64,000 nt of DNA, taken from Bacteroidaceae bacterium. GTDB taxonomy: Bacteria > Bacteroidota > Bacteroidia > Bacteroidales > Bacteroidaceae. Shown in pieces: positions 21,775 through 36,944 of this stretch. The notes beneath the pieces are model-generated. The model searched no databases, was not told the origin of the DNA, and saw only the letters and a list, made by a program, of their open reading frames with translations. The stretch is taken from NCBI GenBank assembly GCA_017464345.1, contig JAFUAH010000019.1:45898-109897 (forward strand), read 5' to 3'. A program made the position numbers and the translations under genes. Position 1 is the first letter of the stretch. Each line of letters begins with the position of its first letter.

Positions 21775-24700
21775 TTACTTGATAAACGTTTTCTTGCCAT
21801 TCACAATATACAGGCCGCGCGTGGGCTTCTGTATGCGCCGTCCGCTCAGGTCATAGACGATGTTGCCCTCTGGCAGTTGTGCTCCCGCAGCTTCCACTCC
21901 GGTCTCTGTATCGAAACCAAAGCCAATGAACTCACGGACATCACCCACCACGGGCAGGGGCAGATAGACACGACCTGCGCCCAGCGAACCGCCCTGCCAC
22001 AGATAGAAGCCGACTGCTCCGCTCCGCTTGGCCAGTACGTAGACACCGTTGCCCGTGGTCTCGTCGCTGACGGCCAGCAGATTTGTGCTGGCATCGTCGC
22101 AATCCTCATCGTCCACGATGGTCAGCGTGTGGTCTCCCTCTGCGCCCTTCAGCACCACGGGCACACCAGCCTCTACGGCATTCACCTGGGTCAACCGGGC
22201 TGTCTCGCCATCGTTCGAGGTCACGATGTAGGCCTCCACCTCGTCGGGGAACTCCACGTTCTGGGCCGATACCATCGTACGCCAGCCCGTCGTGCCAATG
22301 CTGATGTCGAAGGTGGCGACCTCATTCAATTTATAGAGTTGAATGGCTTGCTGACTGGTATAGCTTGAACTCTTGTAATAACGGAAACGCAACTGGTCTG
22401 CTGCTGAATTAAATCTTAGGTAAGCCCCTCCTGATACAATATTGGCATTCCCGCCCCCATCAAAACTGATAGTATTCTCATACGTGGTCTCCGCATTTTG
22501 TGCCAAGCCATTGGCATCTGAGGTCTGACCGATGTATTTTCCCGACGCGCTCTTCAGTGTTTTGGCTGTAGCATTATATGTAAATACGGCAGCCTTCAGT
22601 GCATCTGTGGCGGAGATTACACCTTCATTGATGGTAACACTGATGGTATTGTTATTTGCATCAAGGGTAGCCAATGCACCATTGAAGGCCACATTCCCCC
22701 CTTCATATACTATTAAGTATTGACCGTCCTTAAGGTCTTCTGTAGAAGTCACTTTCACGAATCCCGTACCCGAGGGCCCCACTGGAGCCACACCGGGCTT
22801 TGAAGTAACGGTCACGGAGATGGTCTTATCCACAGCATTATAAATGTCAGTCGCCGCCACACTGATGGTAATGTCTGCCGTACCGGGCTTGTAACCTTTC
22901 AGCACGCCCTCTACGACTTCAGCCACAGTGGCATCGGTGGAGGTGAACGAAACAGAACCATCCGAAGTGGTTGTATAGAAGTCGTCCCTCTCTGTCGTGG
23001 CATCCAAGTCGTCGATGTCGCTGGCGGTGATGGTTGCAGTCTTCTTGTTCACTGTCAGGGTAAAGGTGGCACTGCCGGCCTTGTACTCGTCAGTCTGGGC
23101 CGATGTGGCGGTGATGACGGCCACGCCGGCCTTGTTCTTGAAGGTGATGACACCCGTTGAGGCATTCACGTCGGCCACTTCTGCATTGTTGGTGCTGAAG
23201 CTCACGCTCAGGTCATTGGGATTGGAGAAGGTCGGTTTCGAAAAGTCTTCATCCAGCGTCAGCGTGGCCGTGGCTGGGCTAAAGGACAGACCTGCTTCGG
23301 CACGCGCCACCGTGATGGTGTAGGAGGCAGAGCCTTTGCGATAATCGTCATTGCCGGCGAAGGATGCGGTTATCGTGGCCGTGCCCTCTTCCTTGATGGT
23401 CACAGCGCCCGTGGCTGCATTTACCGTTGCCACATCCGTGTCATCTGAAGCATATGTCACCATCAAGTCATGAGGATTCGTCAGCGTCGGCGTTGCGAAC
23501 GAAGCATTGGGGTGAGTGTTGTAGGATGCTGTAGCATAGGACAGGCTGGCTGGAGACTTTCCGTCGTTGAGGCGGAATAAATACAAATCATTCTGTCCCG
23601 ACGCATAAGTTGTAAAACGAGGGGTTCCCGCATTATATTTTAGGTAATTATCTCCCATTTTCAACACGGCCACGCCTTCTGTAATGTCAATTGTAGTAAC
23701 CGTTGCGTTGGATTTTTCCGAAGTGTTCGTCACCGACTTTGCAGACGACGAGACAATATAGCCTTCGTCTGTATTCAGTAGCCAGCCATCTTCTACTTCT
23801 TCAAGTGTTACGATTTTCACTGCAGAAGAAGGATCCACCAATTGGTCGCTTTCTATTGAAACTTCCACATTCTTTCGATATGTTCCCGTCTCATGCTGTC
23901 CCCCCATAGCAAAATATTTACTACTAGTGCTGTTATAACTTACAATTATCACTTTATCCCCATCTGCCAGGTCACTGGCATCTGCCAATTTCTCATATAC
24001 GTCAGCCTCAGCGAACGTAGCTGTCAGCGTGGGAGTGGCAGAAGCAAAGGTAAAGGTCTCCGTGGCATTGGATGAAGAGGCCGGAGTGGCACCGACGGCA
24101 GTCCAACCAGTGAACTTGTAACCACTGATGGGCACAGCCGTAACGGCCACAGAACTGCCTACACGAGAGGTGATGGATGTAACCACATCACCACCTACCT
24201 TGAACGTACCCTTATCGTTCGTAGCCACCAACGTCACGTTGGCCACCTGGTAGGGAGTGACCGTGAGGGTGACAGTCTGCGAGGTGATGCCCCCACCACT
24301 GACAGTGATGGTTCCGTCCATGTCATCATCTACGGCTGTGGGAGCAGCTGTCACGGTGATAGTCTGCGCTGTGGTTGCCGTCTGAAGTATGGACGTGGGC
24401 GAAACGGTGTATTTGTCATTATCAACGGCTATGGCCAAATTACCCGTCAGATTAACAGGTGTAACGGTGAATGTCAGGGCCTTGGACTGCCCCACTTCTA
24501 CTTCGCCAAAGGAGAGTTCCGTAGCGGAGAGCGTTGCCGTAGGGGCCGACGGATTGACAATGCTTACCATAAAGTCCTTATTAACGGCAGTGTACTTTGT
24601 GAGATCTGAGGGTGTAGCCGTAACCGTCACCGTATAGTCACCCGTCGTGCTTCCTGTCACGTATTCATTGCCTTCTATGTATAAGGCATCATCGTCACTG

Positions 24701-25386
24701 CTAGCGTAGGAATATGTAACACTTGCCCCCTCTGCCACCGTAGCCGATGCCGAGAAAGTGCCCGTATCATCCACATTCAATGTCGTGGGAGATAAAGTAA
24801 ATGATGATGCATCGACGCAGGGGACAGTTTCTTCTTCCAATTTATAAACCTTGATTGCATGGGGATACGAAGTTCCCGAAAGATTGGAAGAAGCATAAGC
24901 TTTATACACATAAGTTTTAGCTCCTGTATATCCTAAAAAGCGGTTTTCATTATTAACATCTTGGATATTTACAGTTCCATCATTTTGAAAATCAAACTGC
25001 CATGTACCTACTGCAGTTGCAGTATTTGGTTTAGTTCCAAGAGAAACGTCCGTTTTACTAGACTTTGACAATAGATATTGGTTACTCTTTAATGAGACAT
25101 TCTTCATGTAAAAATAAGTTCCACCAGTCTTTGTCGCTGCCTCTAATGTCCACACGTAAGACTCAGTCCCCTTCAACCCCGTTGTACTATATGAAGTCGC
25201 TGTTTGAAGAGTTTTTGAACTTACTGTATTGTTCATTACATGGCCATCTTGCTCAAACACATATAGTCCGCCAGCCTCTACCGATGTAACCTGTGTAAGT
25301 TTATAGGTCGCCCCATAAACATTAATGGCTCCAATGAGCAATAGTAGCCCGAGGAGCCATGATTTGAAAAGTAAAGTTTTACTCAT
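21775..25386 (-). CDS. 1203-residue secreted multidomain protein with Ig-like domains and sorting domain
   Basis: An exported protein: signal peptide (1-25); three copies of a ~145-residue module at about 27-184, 463-607 and 875-1020; Ig-like and abnormal-spindle-like beta domains between (about 190-380); an InlB B-repeat-like stretch (about 384-458, with GYKFTGWTAVG); BIG_2-type Ig repeats (about 612-862, with ASDDTDVATVNAATGAVTI patterns). The C-terminus carries YDLSGRRI and GLYIVNGKKTFIK, a sorting signal of the type IX style. The substrate or partner is unknown; no catalytic domain is visible, so an adhesive or scaffold role is likely. A structured RNA element lies upstream. Confidence 0.85.
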   Translation of the reverse strand: MSKTLLFKSWLLGLLLLIGAINVYGATYKLTQVTSVEAGGLYVFEQDGHVMNNTVSSKTLQTATSYSTTGLKGTESYVWTLEAATKTGGTYFYMKNVSLKSNQYLLSKSSKTDVSLGTKPNTATAVGTWQFDFQNDGTVNIQDVNNENRFLGYTGAKTYVYKAYASSNLSGTSYPHAIKVYKLEEETVPCVDASSFTLSPTTLNVDDTGTFSASATVAEGASVTYSYASSDDDALYIEGNEYVTGSTTGDYTVTVTATPSDLTKYTAVNKDFMVSIVNPSAPTATLSATELSFGEVEVGQSKALTFTVTPVNLTGNLAIAVDNDKYTVSPTSILQTATTAQTITVTAAPTAVDDDMDGTITVSGGGITSQTVTLTVTPYQVANVTLVATNDKGTFKVGGDVVTSITSRVGSSVAVTAVPISGYKFTGWTAVGATPASSSNATETFTFASATPTLTATFAEADVYEKLADASDLADGDKVIIVSYNSTSSKYFAMGGQHETGTYRKNVEVSIESDQLVDPSSAVKIVTLEEVEDGWLLNTDEGYIVSSSAKSVTNTSEKSNATVTTIDITEGVAVLKMGDNYLKYNAGTPRFTTYASGQNDLYLFRLNDGKSPASLSYATASYNTHPNASFATPTLTNPHDLMVTYASDDTDVATVNAATGAVTIKEEGTATITASFAGNDDYRKGSASYTITVARAEAGLSFSPATATLTLDEDFSKPTFSNPNDLSVSFSTNNAEVADVNASTGVITFKNKAGVAVITATSAQTDEYKAGSATFTLTVNKKTATITASDIDDLDATTERDDFYTTTSDGSVSFTSTDATVAEVVEGVLKGYKPGTADITISVAATDIYNAVDKTISVTVTSKPGVAPVGPSGTGFVKVTSTEDLKDGQYLIVYEGGNVAFNGALATLDANNNTISVTINEGVISATDALKAAVFTYNATAKTLKSASGKYIGQTSDANGLAQNAETTYENTISFDGGGNANIVSGGAYLRFNSAADQLRFRYYKSSSYTSQQAIQLYKLNEVATFDISIGTTGWRTMVSAQNVEFPDEVEAYIVTSNDGETARLTQVNAVEAGVPVVLKGAEGDHTLTIVDDEDCDDASTNLLAVSDETTGNGVYVLAKRSGAVGFYLWQGGSLGAGRVYLPLPVVGDVREFIGFGFDTETGVEAAGAQLPEGNIVYDLSGRRIQKPTRGLYIVNGKKTFIK

Positions 25387-25463
25387 AATGTAGTTTGTTT
25401 AAAGTTAGTACCGTTGTTTATTCTAAGGATGGCCATGAACAATCGCATCTCCCATACAAACAG

Positions 25464-25652
25464 AAAAAGCGTATGTCCTCGCCATACGCTTCTCAGGCCT
25501 ACCACAGCCTATATCCCTACGGGAAGACACACACTTTATGCGTCTACTCAACTGGGATATAGGTCCTTGGCGCTCATAGGCTCCCTGATGTGGTAGTTCG
25601 AGAAGCGATTCTGAGCAAATATGAAGTTAAAATTATGCACTTCCGCCGAAAT
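25464..25652 (-). ncRNA. structured RNA element: 6S-like ncRNA or cis-acting leader
   Basis: On the minus strand a -7 box (TATCTTTG, 25659-25666) is followed by a hairpin (GAAGT/ACTTC), then a long imperfect rod: 8 bp (25600-25607 with 25487-25494), 8 bp (CTACCACA with TGTGGTAG), a one-sided 25-nt bulge, and a perfect 10-bp helix CCTATATCCC/GGGATATAGG closing a ~36-nt loop. A terminator hairpin plus T run ends it at 25464. The rod shape and self-contained promoter and terminator resemble 6S RNA (the Bacteroidota 6S-Flavo class); but it is also 78 bases upstream of a gene on the same strand, and the outer helix overlaps the terminator by 3 nt, so a riboswitch-like leader is possible. Confidence 0.6.
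25469..25489 (-). terminator. terminator of the structured RNA
   Basis: A 7-bp hairpin (GCGTATG/CATACGC, 25483-25489 with 25469-25475 on the minus strand) followed by five T. The GCG at its base is shared with the outer helix of the upstream structure. Confidence 0.65.
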
Positions 25653-25658
25653 ACACTG

Positions 25659-25666
25659 CAAAGATA
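25659..25666 (-). promoter_or_regulatory. -7 promoter box of the structured RNA
   Basis: The minus strand reads TATCTTTG. No clear TTTG at the usual -33 spacing is seen, so upstream contacts may differ. Confidence 0.5.
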
Positions 25667-25749
25667 CAAATTTATATTTGATTCCCCACACACATTTGCC
25701 ACTTTTTTCTCATATGCTGTTACATATCCCCACACAAGAGTGGGTATAT

Positions 25750-25804
25750 CCAGTGAAGTGCCCCCCGAAAGCCATTGTCTGACTTTCGGGGGGCACTTCA
25801 CTGG
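25750..25804. terminator. 22-bp bidirectional hairpin
   Basis: A perfect inverted repeat, 25750-25771 with 25783-25804, 11-base loop, 30 bases beyond the stop of the DUF386 gene. The arm includes TGAAGTGCCCCCC, shared with the terminator at 1797-1833. The remainder of the 25387-25834 gap holds the structured RNA and its promoter; I see no gene there. Confidence 0.75.
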
Positions 25805-25834
25805 GTTCGCCTCAAACGAGGGGCTGTATATGCC

Positions 25835-26348: not shown

Positions 26349-28478
26349 TCACTTTACCATCACCACCTTGCGACCGTTCTGAATGTAGAGTCCCCTGATG
26401 GGCTTCGTCACACGCTGGCCGGCCAAGTTGTAGACGGGAGCTTTCGTGTCAGCCTCGCCATTGATGGCATGAATGGCATTCTCGGTCCGCTCGATGGTGT
26501 ACCAGGCGATGTCGGTCTTATGTTCCTCCTCACCACCGCGATAGATGCTCTGCACACCGATGCGGTCGTAGGAGAGGGTGGACGAATTGAGGTAAACATA
26601 GACTTCCGTACCATTCACATAGAAATCCCATTCATCATTCATCGTGTAGGGAATCTCCACCAAGTCCTCCGTCAGGTTCTCGTAGAGACTGGCACTGAAG
26701 CGGTACTCGCTGACGGCACCGGCCTCATCGATATAGAGTTTGTAGAAGAGTTTATCCACGACAAGGGGATTGCCATTGACGTCAGTGATGGGGATATTCA
26801 GCGTTACGGCACCGAAATCATACTCTTCGTCCGAGTCTTCGAATTTCACCACCGAGGGGGCTGCGGGCGTTCCTGCCGTCTCGCTCACGCGGTAGAAGAC
26901 GGCCCCCGTGAGTATTTCGTAGGGATTTTCGGAGATGGCATTGGGATTGGTCAGCATCCAGTTTTCAGCTGTCAGTACAGCTCCATCCTCGGATACGGTT
27001 AGGCGGACATCCTCCACACCGTTCTCTCCATAGCCCAGGAAGTAGAAGTCGAAGTCGCCAAAATAGCTTTCATACGTACCATAATATTGTCCCGAAGGAA
27101 GCACAATTTTGCCGTCGCTGAGGGTACCCTTCAGCCATGCATCAGGCAAGTAGCTGCAGAGGCCCTGGACGTAGACATCCGTGCCGTCGAAGCCCACGCG
27201 GGTCACCCGTGTGACGGGAGTGTAGACCGGTGTCTGCTCGGCATTCTCGTCCTCTCCGTCCTCGAAAGTCAGGTCATAGGCCTCCAGATTATACTGTACG
27301 GTCTCCAGGCCCTCGGGCACTTCCACGACTTCGGGCTGCACCACGGCGCCAGGGGTCAGGGTCAAGCTTTCCCAGTAGTCATACCAGCCCTGCGAAGCGG
27401 TGGCATCGTCGCTTTCTGCAAAGAAGTAGTTCTCGTTCAGACTAATAACACGCGTCTCTGCATCGAAGTCGAGCACCATATAGGGTGTCTCTGCAAAACC
27501 ACCGTTACCGTCGGTCGTGTAGGGGATGAGATAGTTCTCATAGCCATAGTCATCCTCACCCATGTAGGTAGTGGGCACCTGCACCTGATTGTCCTTCAGC
27601 ACACCCTTCACCCATGCTCCGGGCACCCAATAGGACAGGCCCTGGATATAGACATCAGCACCGTCGATGGCCACCTGCACAGTCTGGTTCACGGTCTTGC
27701 TCTCCCAGTTCGACTCGCCAGAGACGTAGCCCAGCATAACCTGGGCATAATCCTCGGTTTGCAGGCCATCGGGGAGCGTCACCAGCTCCAGCACTTCAAT
27801 CTCAGGCTCCGTCCACTCGCCGTTCAGCTTGTAGAGTTGGATAGCCTTCTGATTGGTGTAAGTTCCCGATTTGTAGTAGCGGAAACGGGCCTGCCCGTTG
27901 GAAGCGTTATAGCGCAGGTATGCCCCACCGCTGGAGAGGACTACGACATTACCTTCTCCGTCAATACTGAGTTGGTTGACATAGGGCGTAGATGTGCTGG
28001 AAAGCAGGCCGTTGGCATCGCTGATCTGGCCCATATACAGGCCTCCAGCACCCTGCAGGCTATAGCCGCCGTCCACGGCTGCAATGGTAAATGATGCAGC
28101 ATCCGTGGCTGCCGTGCTGGCAATCTGGCCGTCGGCGATGGTGACACTGATGGTGTTGCCTGTGGCGTCCAGTACGTCGGCTGGACTGCCGTCAAGGGCT
28201 ACGGCTCCATCTTCATAGACAAACAGGTAGTGCCCCTCCCAATTCTCGGGAGTGGTGTTCACCTTCACATAGGTTGCAGCCTCGCCCTCGGCACGGCGCA
28301 TCCGCTTCAGAGGCAGCTGGGCACGGTTCTGTGACTTGGCCGCACGTACTTTCTGCATCTGCATGGGCACGGGCACTGCCTTCTGGTGCATCTCCTTGCC
28401 ATTCTGCGCAAACGCATTCTGCGCAAACGCTACTGCCGCAACGAGTACGGCCACGAATAAGGTGTAGAATTTCTTCAT
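26349..28478 (-). CDS. 709-residue secreted protein with shared module and sorting domain
   Basis: The ATG at 28478 (MKKFYTLFVA) follows the promoter and gives a clean signal peptide (1-24, cleaved near FAQ-N). Residues 69-219 form the module also found in the endonuclease and in the 1203-residue protein (YLFVYEDGAVALDG ... ARFRYYKSG ... AIQLYKL). Two related repeats follow (about 225-400 and 405-570), each opening with LPDGLQTEDY- or VPEGLETVQY-like text and containing VQVAIDGADVYIQGL / VGFDGTDVYVQGL. The end is YNLAGQRV...GLYIQNGRKVVMVK, a sorting domain. The function is unknown; it is probably a surface or secreted protein. Confidence 0.85.
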   Translation of the reverse strand: MKKFYTLFVAVLVAAVAFAQNAFAQNGKEMHQKAVPVPMQMQKVRAAKSQNRAQLPLKRMRRAEGEAATYVKVNTTPENWEGHYLFVYEDGAVALDGSPADVLDATGNTISVTIADGQIASTAATDAASFTIAAVDGGYSLQGAGGLYMGQISDANGLLSSTSTPYVNQLSIDGEGNVVVLSSGGAYLRYNASNGQARFRYYKSGTYTNQKAIQLYKLNGEWTEPEIEVLELVTLPDGLQTEDYAQVMLGYVSGESNWESKTVNQTVQVAIDGADVYIQGLSYWVPGAWVKGVLKDNQVQVPTTYMGEDDYGYENYLIPYTTDGNGGFAETPYMVLDFDAETRVISLNENYFFAESDDATASQGWYDYWESLTLTPGAVVQPEVVEVPEGLETVQYNLEAYDLTFEDGEDENAEQTPVYTPVTRVTRVGFDGTDVYVQGLCSYLPDAWLKGTLSDGKIVLPSGQYYGTYESYFGDFDFYFLGYGENGVEDVRLTVSEDGAVLTAENWMLTNPNAISENPYEILTGAVFYRVSETAGTPAAPSVVKFEDSDEEYDFGAVTLNIPITDVNGNPLVVDKLFYKLYIDEAGAVSEYRFSASLYENLTEDLVEIPYTMNDEWDFYVNGTEVYVYLNSSTLSYDRIGVQSIYRGGEEEHKTDIAWYTIERTENAIHAINGEADTKAPVYNLAGQRVTKPIRGLYIQNGRKVVMVK

Positions 28479-28512
28479 ATTGTTAAAATTTAGAATTAAA
28501 ATATATAAAATT

Positions 28513-28554
28513 CGACGGCAAAGGTACGAAATATTTACGAAACCTTTGCCGTCG
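28513..28554 (-). terminator. terminator of nrdD-nrdG that also carries the next gene's -7 box
   Basis: A perfect 13-bp inverted repeat (28513-28525 with 28542-28554, arms CGACGGCAAAGGT and complement). Read on the minus strand it follows the nrdG stop and is followed by an AT-rich tail; its distal arm contains the -7 box TACCTTTG (28519-28526) of the 709-residue protein gene. Ending one unit and starting the next therefore share the same bases. Confidence 0.7.
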
Positions 28555-28585
28555 GCTATCTTATTTTTCACCCAGCACTACAAAT

Positions 28586-36258: not shown

Positions 36259-36378
36259 TTTTTGCGGTGCGTACGGGACTCGTCATCGGCTTGCCGCTTG
36301 GCTCGTCCAAGAACCCTGCCCCCGGGGGCACGAGGTGAGAGTTACGTATCGCGACGCTTGCGGTGCGTACGGGACTCG
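36259..36378 (-). repeat. duplicated tRNA-Asp 3' end and intervening spacer
   Basis: A 21-bp direct repeat, 36262-36282 and 36358-36378 (TTGCGGTGCGTACGGGACTCG). The second copy is the 3' end of the intact tRNA-Asp gene, the first is an isolated copy 96 bases away. The spacer holds GC-rich short palindromes such as TGCCCCCGGGGGCA. This resembles an attachment site beside the tRNA left by an integrated element. Confidence 0.65.
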
Positions 36379-36435
36379 AACCCGTGACCCCATGCGTGAC
36401 AGGCATGTATTCTAACCAAGCTGAACTAACGCACC
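36362..36435 (-). tRNA. tRNA-Asp (GTC)
   Basis: A 74-nt cloverleaf on the minus strand. Acceptor GGTGCGT/ACGCACC, anticodon loop CTGTCAC with GTC, anticodon stem CATGC/GCATG fully paired, T arm ACGGGTTCGAGTCCCGT. The CCA end is not encoded. It is the last gene of the tRNA cluster. Confidence 0.95.
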
Positions 36436-36465
36436 AAACCTAACCAATAAAAGCAATGAATGAGA

Positions 36466-36537
<72 letters not shown>

Positions 36538-36557
36538 AACAAAGAGAAAAATGAAGC

Positions 36558-36631
36558 GGTGCGTACGGGACTCGAACCCGTGACCCCATGCGTGACAGCC
36601 ATGTATTCTAACCAAGCTGAACTAACGCACC
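36558..36631 (-). tRNA. tRNA-Asp (GTC), second copy with an anticodon-stem mismatch
   Basis: Identical to the copy at 36362-36435 except for one base: position 31 is G instead of C, giving a G31-G39 mismatch next to the anticodon loop (stem CATGG/GCATG). All other stems pair. Confidence 0.9.
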
Positions 36632-36654
36632 GTTCTACATTGTTTCAAAGAAGT

Positions 36655-36736
36655 GGGTGGTGATGGATTCGAACCACCGAAGGCGTAAGCCAGCAGATTT
36701 ACAGTCTGCCCCATTTGGCCACTCTGGTAACCACCC
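36655..36736 (-). tRNA. tRNA-Tyr (GTA)
   Basis: An 82-nt cloverleaf on the minus strand with a long class II variable arm (CTGGCTTACGCCTTCG region), acceptor GGGTGGT/ATCACCACCC side, and anticodon loop CTGTAAA with GTA. Confidence 0.94.
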
Positions 36737-36766
36737 GCGCATCTTCTGCTGCTTTCGTCTGGAAGT

Positions 36767-36839
36767 GACTCCTGCGGGATTCAAACCCACAACCTTCTGA
36801 TCCGTAGTCAGATGCTCTATTCAGTTGAGCTAAGGAGCC
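36767..36839 (-). tRNA. tRNA-Arg (ACG)
   Basis: A 73-nt cloverleaf on the minus strand: acceptor GGCTCCT/AGGAGTC with one G-U pair, D arm AGCTCAACTGAATAGAGC, anticodon loop CTACGGA with ACG, whose A is expected to be edited to inosine. Confidence 0.94.
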
Positions 36840-36870
36840 ATCTTCTTCTTCAGTCTTTCAAATTCCGGGT

Positions 36871-36944
36871 GGGCGCTGAGGGATTCGAACCCCCGACCCT
36901 CTGCTTGTAAGGCAGACGCTCTGAACCAACTGAGCTAAGCGCCC
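36871..36944 (-). tRNA. tRNA-Val (TAC)
   Basis: A 74-nt cloverleaf on the minus strand: acceptor GGGCGCT/AGCGCCC, anticodon loop CTTACAA with TAC, T loop TTCGAAT. It is the first tRNA of the cluster. Confidence 0.95.

Follow-up and report, generated by a model that had tools for sequence, protein, structure and literature searches.

A probable transcription-attenuating leader RNA of Bacteroidales, found mostly ahead of genes for exported proteins

The structured RNA encoded on the minus strand of the window (the whole stretch of 64,000 nucleotides that was analysed, from a contig of a Bacteroidaceae bacterium) is probably a transcription-attenuating, riboswitch-like 5′ leader, acting in cis and controlling whether transcription reaches the gene of an exported protein; we put the probability of this at about 0.7. 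The 203-nt stretch at 25464-25666 folds 4.3 SD below its dinucleotide shuffles, none of 200 shuffles being as good, and its parts are listed in Table 1. A sequence-only reading of the locus had hesitated between a 6S-type RNA and a terminator-controlled leader of the large secreted protein gene downstream, and it did not reveal that the RNA is a member of a large family associated with exported proteins.

Table 1. Parts of the leader RNA and the gene that follows it, in window positions.
Feature	Position	Strand	Observation
-7 promoter box, TAnnTTTG type (TATCTTTG)	25659-25666	-	same box upstream in most relatives
5′ hairpin P0	25635-25657	-	in the window fold; in relatives by eye only, sequence variable
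PK1 5′ strand GCTC (crossing helix), partner GAGC 25572-25575 inside the bulge	25613-25616	-	paired in 75-76/76, nearly invariant
P1 5′ strand, partner 25487-25494 (8 bp)	25600-25607	-	double changes in 8/8 pairs, 99.5% of cells paired
P2 5′ strand CTACCAC, partner 25499-25505 (7 bp modelled)	25590-25596	-	double changes in 7/7 pairs, 99.6% paired
P3 5′ strand, partner 25508-25517 (10 bp)	25554-25563	-	double changes in 8/8 modelled pairs, 98.0% paired
Apical stem region P4/P3b (putative antiterminator)	25518-25544	-	pairing conserved in the family; window energy fold in another register
Apical 3′ strand, doubling as 5′ strand of the terminator-like helix	25518-25536	-	both pairings conserved in the family
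Hairpin P2c, AGGC(8 nt)GCCT, P2 3′ strand in its loop	25495-25510	-	C-G to U-A in 20/76; hairpin predicted in 36/36 distant copies
Terminator-like helix 3′ strand, partner 25518-25536	25467-25486	-	conserved tail pairing
T-run CTTTTT behind the terminator-like helix	25464-25469	-	at least 5 T in the 8 columns after CGC in 72/76
Stretch matching covariance model R1	25460-25622	-	115 bits
Local hairpin and T-run, 12 pairs	25464-25494	-	-13.1 kcal/mol
Downstream gene, 1203 aa, signal-peptide-like N-terminus	21775-25386	-	Flg_new_2 and Big_2 above cut-offs; spacer 78 nt

Three helices of a rod had been predicted from the letters of this one locus, and all three covary strongly among 76 aligned copies of the RNA, P2 being modelled with 7 bp where 8 had been counted. 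Taking the rod as a whole, double changes occur in 31 of 36 pairs and 98.5% of 2731 cells are paired, as compared with 30-45% in slid control structures. The covariation score reaches 0.710 against 0.223 in shuffled alignments and the double-change cells number 714 against 197, values equalled by 0 of 500 shuffles, although this support is overstated because the alignment was fitted to the rod fold and the shuffles ignore relatedness; the excess of further pair types is less clear (84 versus 77.4, 6/500). P2 occurs, among other forms, as CTACCAC/GTGGTAG, CTGCGAC/GTCGCAG and TTGGAAC/GTTCCAA. The one-sided bulge described in the rod is real, but it is not simply unpaired: it holds one strand of an additional crossing helix, PK1, formed with the 5′ end and nearly invariant among the near relatives. 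In 36 distant copies this helix scores -5.3 with its own partners and -3.75 with swapped ones (sd 0.27). Energy folding of the aligned core returns the apical stem in 74 of the 76 copies and the terminator in none of them (60% rule). The window is one of the two copies whose energy fold is without the modelled apical stem; the modelled apical, P1 and terminator pairs are all missing from it, since its apical stem adopts a different register and it has a strong local hairpin. For the window, the rod and terminator folds lie close together in energy (-70.5 and -65.6 kcal/mol), the unconstrained fold reaching -71.8 kcal/mol.

The tail ahead of the T-run (TATGG..GTCTGCGC) is likewise complementary to the apical stem's 3′ strand (AAGCGYRGAC..CCATA), and through this common strand the rod and the terminator-like fold exclude each other. 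The pairs of the latter were absent from the model that made the alignment. With P2c included, 94.2% of 1423 cells are paired in the 76 copies, compared with 17-55% in slid control structures; there are 62 double-change cells against 15 in shuffles and the score is 0.231 against 0.162 (0/500), the two outermost pairs being kept in only 74.6%. Folded alone, the 3′ half forms the terminator in 74 of 76 copies and P2c in 72. P2c and P2 may be mutually exclusive or may meet in a kissing loop. Tails pair better with their own partners than with swapped ones, both in the 76 copies (-23.5 versus -21.3, sd 0.25) and in 36 distant copies from 37 loci (-21.1 versus -14.4, sd 0.6), where the gain of about 6.8 kcal/mol corresponds to some 11 SD of the swapped means. 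The long-range helix of the window consists of 20 pairs with one bulged base, at -27.0 kcal/mol.

A local hairpin in front of the T-run had been taken as the terminator. In the window it is indeed strong, and a hairpin search there found one against a shuffle mean of 0.5; in the relatives, however, it is mostly weak, and the long-range pairing of the tail is both stronger and conserved. Since the tail also pairs locally, termination might use this hairpin, which would compete only with P1 and not with the apical stem, leaving the long-range pairing as a tertiary contact or a by-product. At least 5 of the 7 tail bases can indeed pair with the P1 3′ strand in 53 of the 76 copies, but only 17 of these do so at -8 kcal/mol or better, whereas the long-range pairing covaries and engages an apical strand that is already paired in the rod. 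We therefore regard a purely local terminator as improbable. Judged from the aligned copies, the long-range helix is the strongest conserved terminator-like helix, covarying and stronger than the local hairpin.

The RNA also has a constant position. A TAnnTTTG box occurs within 90 nt upstream in 66 of the 76 copies (shuffles: mean 4.3, maximum 10), and 64 of 71 boxes lie 31-46 nt ahead of the aligned core; the -7 box that had been called in the window is of this type. On the other side, 74 of 76 copies have a same-strand ORF of 60 aa or more that begins no further than 250 nt downstream, the median distance being 65.5 nt. Copies without an adjoining ORF of 60 aa amount to 2/76 in this near set and to 6/35, 0/20 and 6/60 in three distant sets. 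A -7 box in the spacer is found in 4 of 74 copies, shuffles giving 1.5. Given the few spacer boxes and this placement, expression of the gene most probably relies on transcription reading through the leader RNA, as far as sequence can tell. What characterizes an attenuator leader at this level, namely a site 5′ of a same-strand gene (74/76) and downstream of a promoter (66/76), together with two exclusive conserved folds and a T-run at the end of one of them, is found here. The evidence thus points away from the "self-contained" RNA initially described and towards a 5′ leader whose transcript continues into the gene, as the second of the two original readings had it.

One could still imagine an independent, trans-acting small RNA of about 190 nt, the adjoining gene being reached by occasional read-through or served by its own promoter. 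Its own promoter box, the good T-run, the many copies per genome and the copies without an adjoining ORF would all suit such an RNA. We nevertheless consider it unlikely, as almost all copies sit shortly ahead of a same-strand gene whose product mostly looks exported, and as the spacer seldom offers a -7 box, even allowing for the shuffle background. Moreover, a further helix beyond the T-run, P5, is supported on average (own partners -10.5, swapped -8.2, sd 0.29, in 67 copies); it was left out of the core model because it is weak in the window.

Further observations concern the surroundings of the RNA. Just ahead of the start codon, the spacer of many of the 76 copies contains a helix of the type GTTAGT/ACTAAC with compensating changes, which may provide a further step of control. 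A near-perfect long inverted repeat (CAGTGAAGTGCCCCCCGAAAG...) occupies window positions 25747-25807, between the upstream gene and the leader RNA, and is perhaps a bidirectional terminator.

The RNA is widely distributed. BLASTN over 139 genomes of the genus gave 19 matches in 17 genomes, the own genome counted, and 16 of the matched loci contain the same RNA; the exceptions are L005, L011 and L017, although a covariance model later located a member elsewhere in L011. This model, R1, built from the 16 loci, found members in 82 of the 139 genus genomes and in 106 of 301 genomes of the family, representing 15 of 30 genera. At the level of the order, a wider model, R2, built from 96 sequences, detected members in 74 of 344 genomes, from 55 of 195 genera, and it did so in 9 of 247 genomes of a phylum sample. 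Two of these nine are the own genome and another genome of its family; the other seven, outside the order and labelled 'same class', gave weak matches (E 4e-8 to 2e-4). Over 334,458 bases from 76 sources chosen for containing hits, R1 made 76 matches at E ≤0.01, one per source, and therefore no surplus hits. Among named records, the tightest core pattern was present in 31 stretches titled Prevotella, Prevotellaceae, Bacteroidaceae or Bacteroidales, many of them from ruminants. The window RNA had no match in a plasmid collection and the exact core pattern none in viral contigs. A group II intron match (RF01999) was seen near one distant copy, at L175:1967-2096.

In G411, a copy is located at 4341745-4341895. 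The own genome harbours eight copies and a weak ninth (E 9.5e-6). One of them, L078 (G000:C7:42058-42215, minus strand), lies about 3.7 kb beyond the window start, ahead of an exported-protein gene. Within the window the covariance model has a single match, even though the neighbouring protein at 26349-28571 (minus strand) resembles the 1203-aa protein: by eye, the two have a domain and a type of C-terminal tail (YNLAGQR..GLYIQNGRK) in common. Elsewhere in the window, six tRNA genes are clustered at 36361-36944 (minus strand).

Such multiplication might recall an element acting at the DNA level, for example a mobile repeat or a recombination site, and there are near-identical copies ahead of unrelated genes: the leaders L028 and L031 are 98% identical, yet the proteins encoded downstream are without similarity (best BLASTP E 0.25). 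Against this stand the pairing kept through all the double-change cells of the rod and an orientation to promoter and gene that is fixed in most copies. In addition, seven copies compared within the own genome are only 53-79% identical, and of 30 copies taken from genomes in which several were fetched, 26 are most closely related to a copy in another genome. We consider an origin of the signal in DNA rather than RNA to be very improbable. The leader looks instead as if it were re-used as a control module ahead of unrelated genes.

The genes behind the RNA mostly encode exported products. The large secreted protein reported in the window is indeed there, and a signal-peptide-like start was called in 72 of the 76 downstream genes, compared with 15 of 47 genes of the window and 62 of 160 genes of 31 other loci, using a simple home-made rule that errs both ways and controls that both include genes behind the RNA. 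The remaining copies are L053, L076 (at a contig end), and L048 and L059 (no such ORF). Of 20 near-member products scanned, 11 are without a Pfam family at E 0.001; the others include BspA-type LRR proteins (two), DUF4468, DUF5013 and Sel1/TPR and, below cut-offs, outer-membrane barrels (two) and TonB_C. The bias becomes weaker with distance, exported products making up 20/35, 12/20 and 41/60 in the three distant sets, of which the first two overlap at three places (L165/L199, L170/L192 and L181/L205) and the third follows the list order of the order-level hits, minus copies at contig ends or already fetched. A distant product cut by the locus end (L183) carries a SusC/RagA signature.

Among the products that are not exported, ZorA was matched at E 1e-163 and a type IIG restriction enzyme at 7e-74; the others include a ResIII helicase, methyltransferases of EcoRI-, type I- and MmeI-like kinds (the MmeI-like one matching weakly, Pfam 1e-8), a RibD_C/DHFR-like enzyme and, below cut-off, a weak match to sigma-70 region 4. 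PADLOC, run on 20 selected and mostly non-exported products, gave five strong assignments, namely ZorA, the type IIG enzyme, a restriction-type helicase and two DNA methyltransferases; we claim no enrichment. The defence-type genes (Zorya ZorA, restriction-modification) start 52-93 nt behind the distant copies L192 (G495), L202 and L203 (G687), L214 (G680), L267 (G740) and L174 (G753). There is no evident common pathway among the downstream genes.

UpxY/NusG-type factors act on the capsule leaders of Bacteroides, and the switch considered here could likewise be thrown by an RNA-binding protein or an antitermination factor instead of a small molecule. A switch of this sort would be one form of the attenuation reading and no alternative to it. 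That unrelated genes follow a single leader suggests a global factor, as does the pair of 98%-identical leaders before dissimilar proteins, but the crossing helices and the many invariant bases would equally suit a ligand pocket, and we entertain a protein switch only as a tentative option, with the odds somewhat against it.

No match to the RNA at gathering score was obtained with the 4227 families of Rfam 15, either in the window or in 15 relatives. At E 0.05, 20 distant loci gave two Rfam matches, neither overlapping the RNA, and in the 451 bases surrounding the RNA six low-scoring matches appeared at E ≤10, none of which reached its gathering score. Under the same searches of window RNA, relatives and distant loci, the RNA fell into no riboswitch class of Rfam 15. 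ARAGORN detected no tRNA or tmRNA in eight loci. As regards the literature, no description of the RNA was found in the accessible parts of PMC8040213, PMC7160235, PMC2864571, PMC9723704, PMC6429828 and PMC7366714, although it could be among the 3161 candidates of PMC8040213, and a search for terms in PMC11109978 had no hit. The RNA is thus apparently uncatalogued.

6S RNA (RF00013) and 6S-Flavo (RF01685) form a long rod with an asymmetric bulge, as does the leader RNA. The rod shape, the central bulge and the promoter box of its own would favour a 6S RNA of Bacteroidota, an identification that we nevertheless regard as scarcely credible: the 6S covariance models find no match to the RNA, whether in the window or in 35 member loci, and the leader differs from 6S RNA in its eight to nine copies in one genome, its leader position and its second fold. 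Bacteroidales-1 (RF01693) is similar to the leader RNA in length, occurs in Bacteroidales and has a promoter and a terminator at its ends. This candidate was set aside as well; its model matches the RNA neither in the window nor in any of the 35 member loci, and its matches in G411 and G357 lie at places other than the RNA, which further argues against a 6S role for the latter. Neither RF00013 nor RF01693 has a match in the own genome, but this genome is 61% complete and their absence from it is weak evidence. Flavo-1 (RF01705) is a Bacteroidota motif of unknown function that is described, in PMC9723704, from transcribed regions of Flavobacterium, indistinctly in sense or antisense. The leader RNA differs in its mostly fixed orientation to the gene, and neither the window nor the 35 member loci gave a Flavo-1 match.

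Attenuating riboswitches, as a kind, come closest: like them, the RNA is a structured 5′ leader with crossing helices and with exclusive terminator-like and antiterminator folds. It differs in having no relevant Rfam match, in standing ahead of mostly exported proteins of many kinds and in that its terminator-like helix encloses a long structured loop. The leader RNA would act like a riboswitch or a factor-controlled attenuator and is outside every family tested.

If the attenuation reading is correct, transcription would start just after the -7 box and the nascent RNA would fold into the long rod of P1, P2, P3 and the apical stem, locked by the pseudoknot between 5′ end and bulge. Alternatively, the apical 3′ strand and the tail would form the long helix directly ahead of the T-run, with P2c in its loop. 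This helix would then act as a terminator, stopping transcription and releasing an RNA of about 190 nt, whereas the rod would permit read-through and presumably represents the 'on' state of the gene. A ligand or factor would set the balance between the two folds.

Bacteroidota rank among the major bacteria of the rumen and of the human colon, and to our knowledge the choice of the secreted and surface proteins that they express is largely open. It is tempting to suggest, although we would give it somewhat less than even odds, that the leader represents a new riboswitch-like class, which would extend through the order and into further orders of the same class of Bacteroidota, with as many as eight or nine copies in a genome. 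Such a class might sense a common signal, be it a second messenger or an envelope or phage cue, and release genes for exported surface proteins and, in some lineages, for phage defence (ZorA, type IIG restriction enzyme, DNA methyltransferases). If so, a common attenuating leader across the order, with hints in other orders, would reveal a hidden regulon defined by an RNA and not by a transcription factor, and the association of one RNA with many genes would offer a direct handle for finding the signal to which the leader responds.
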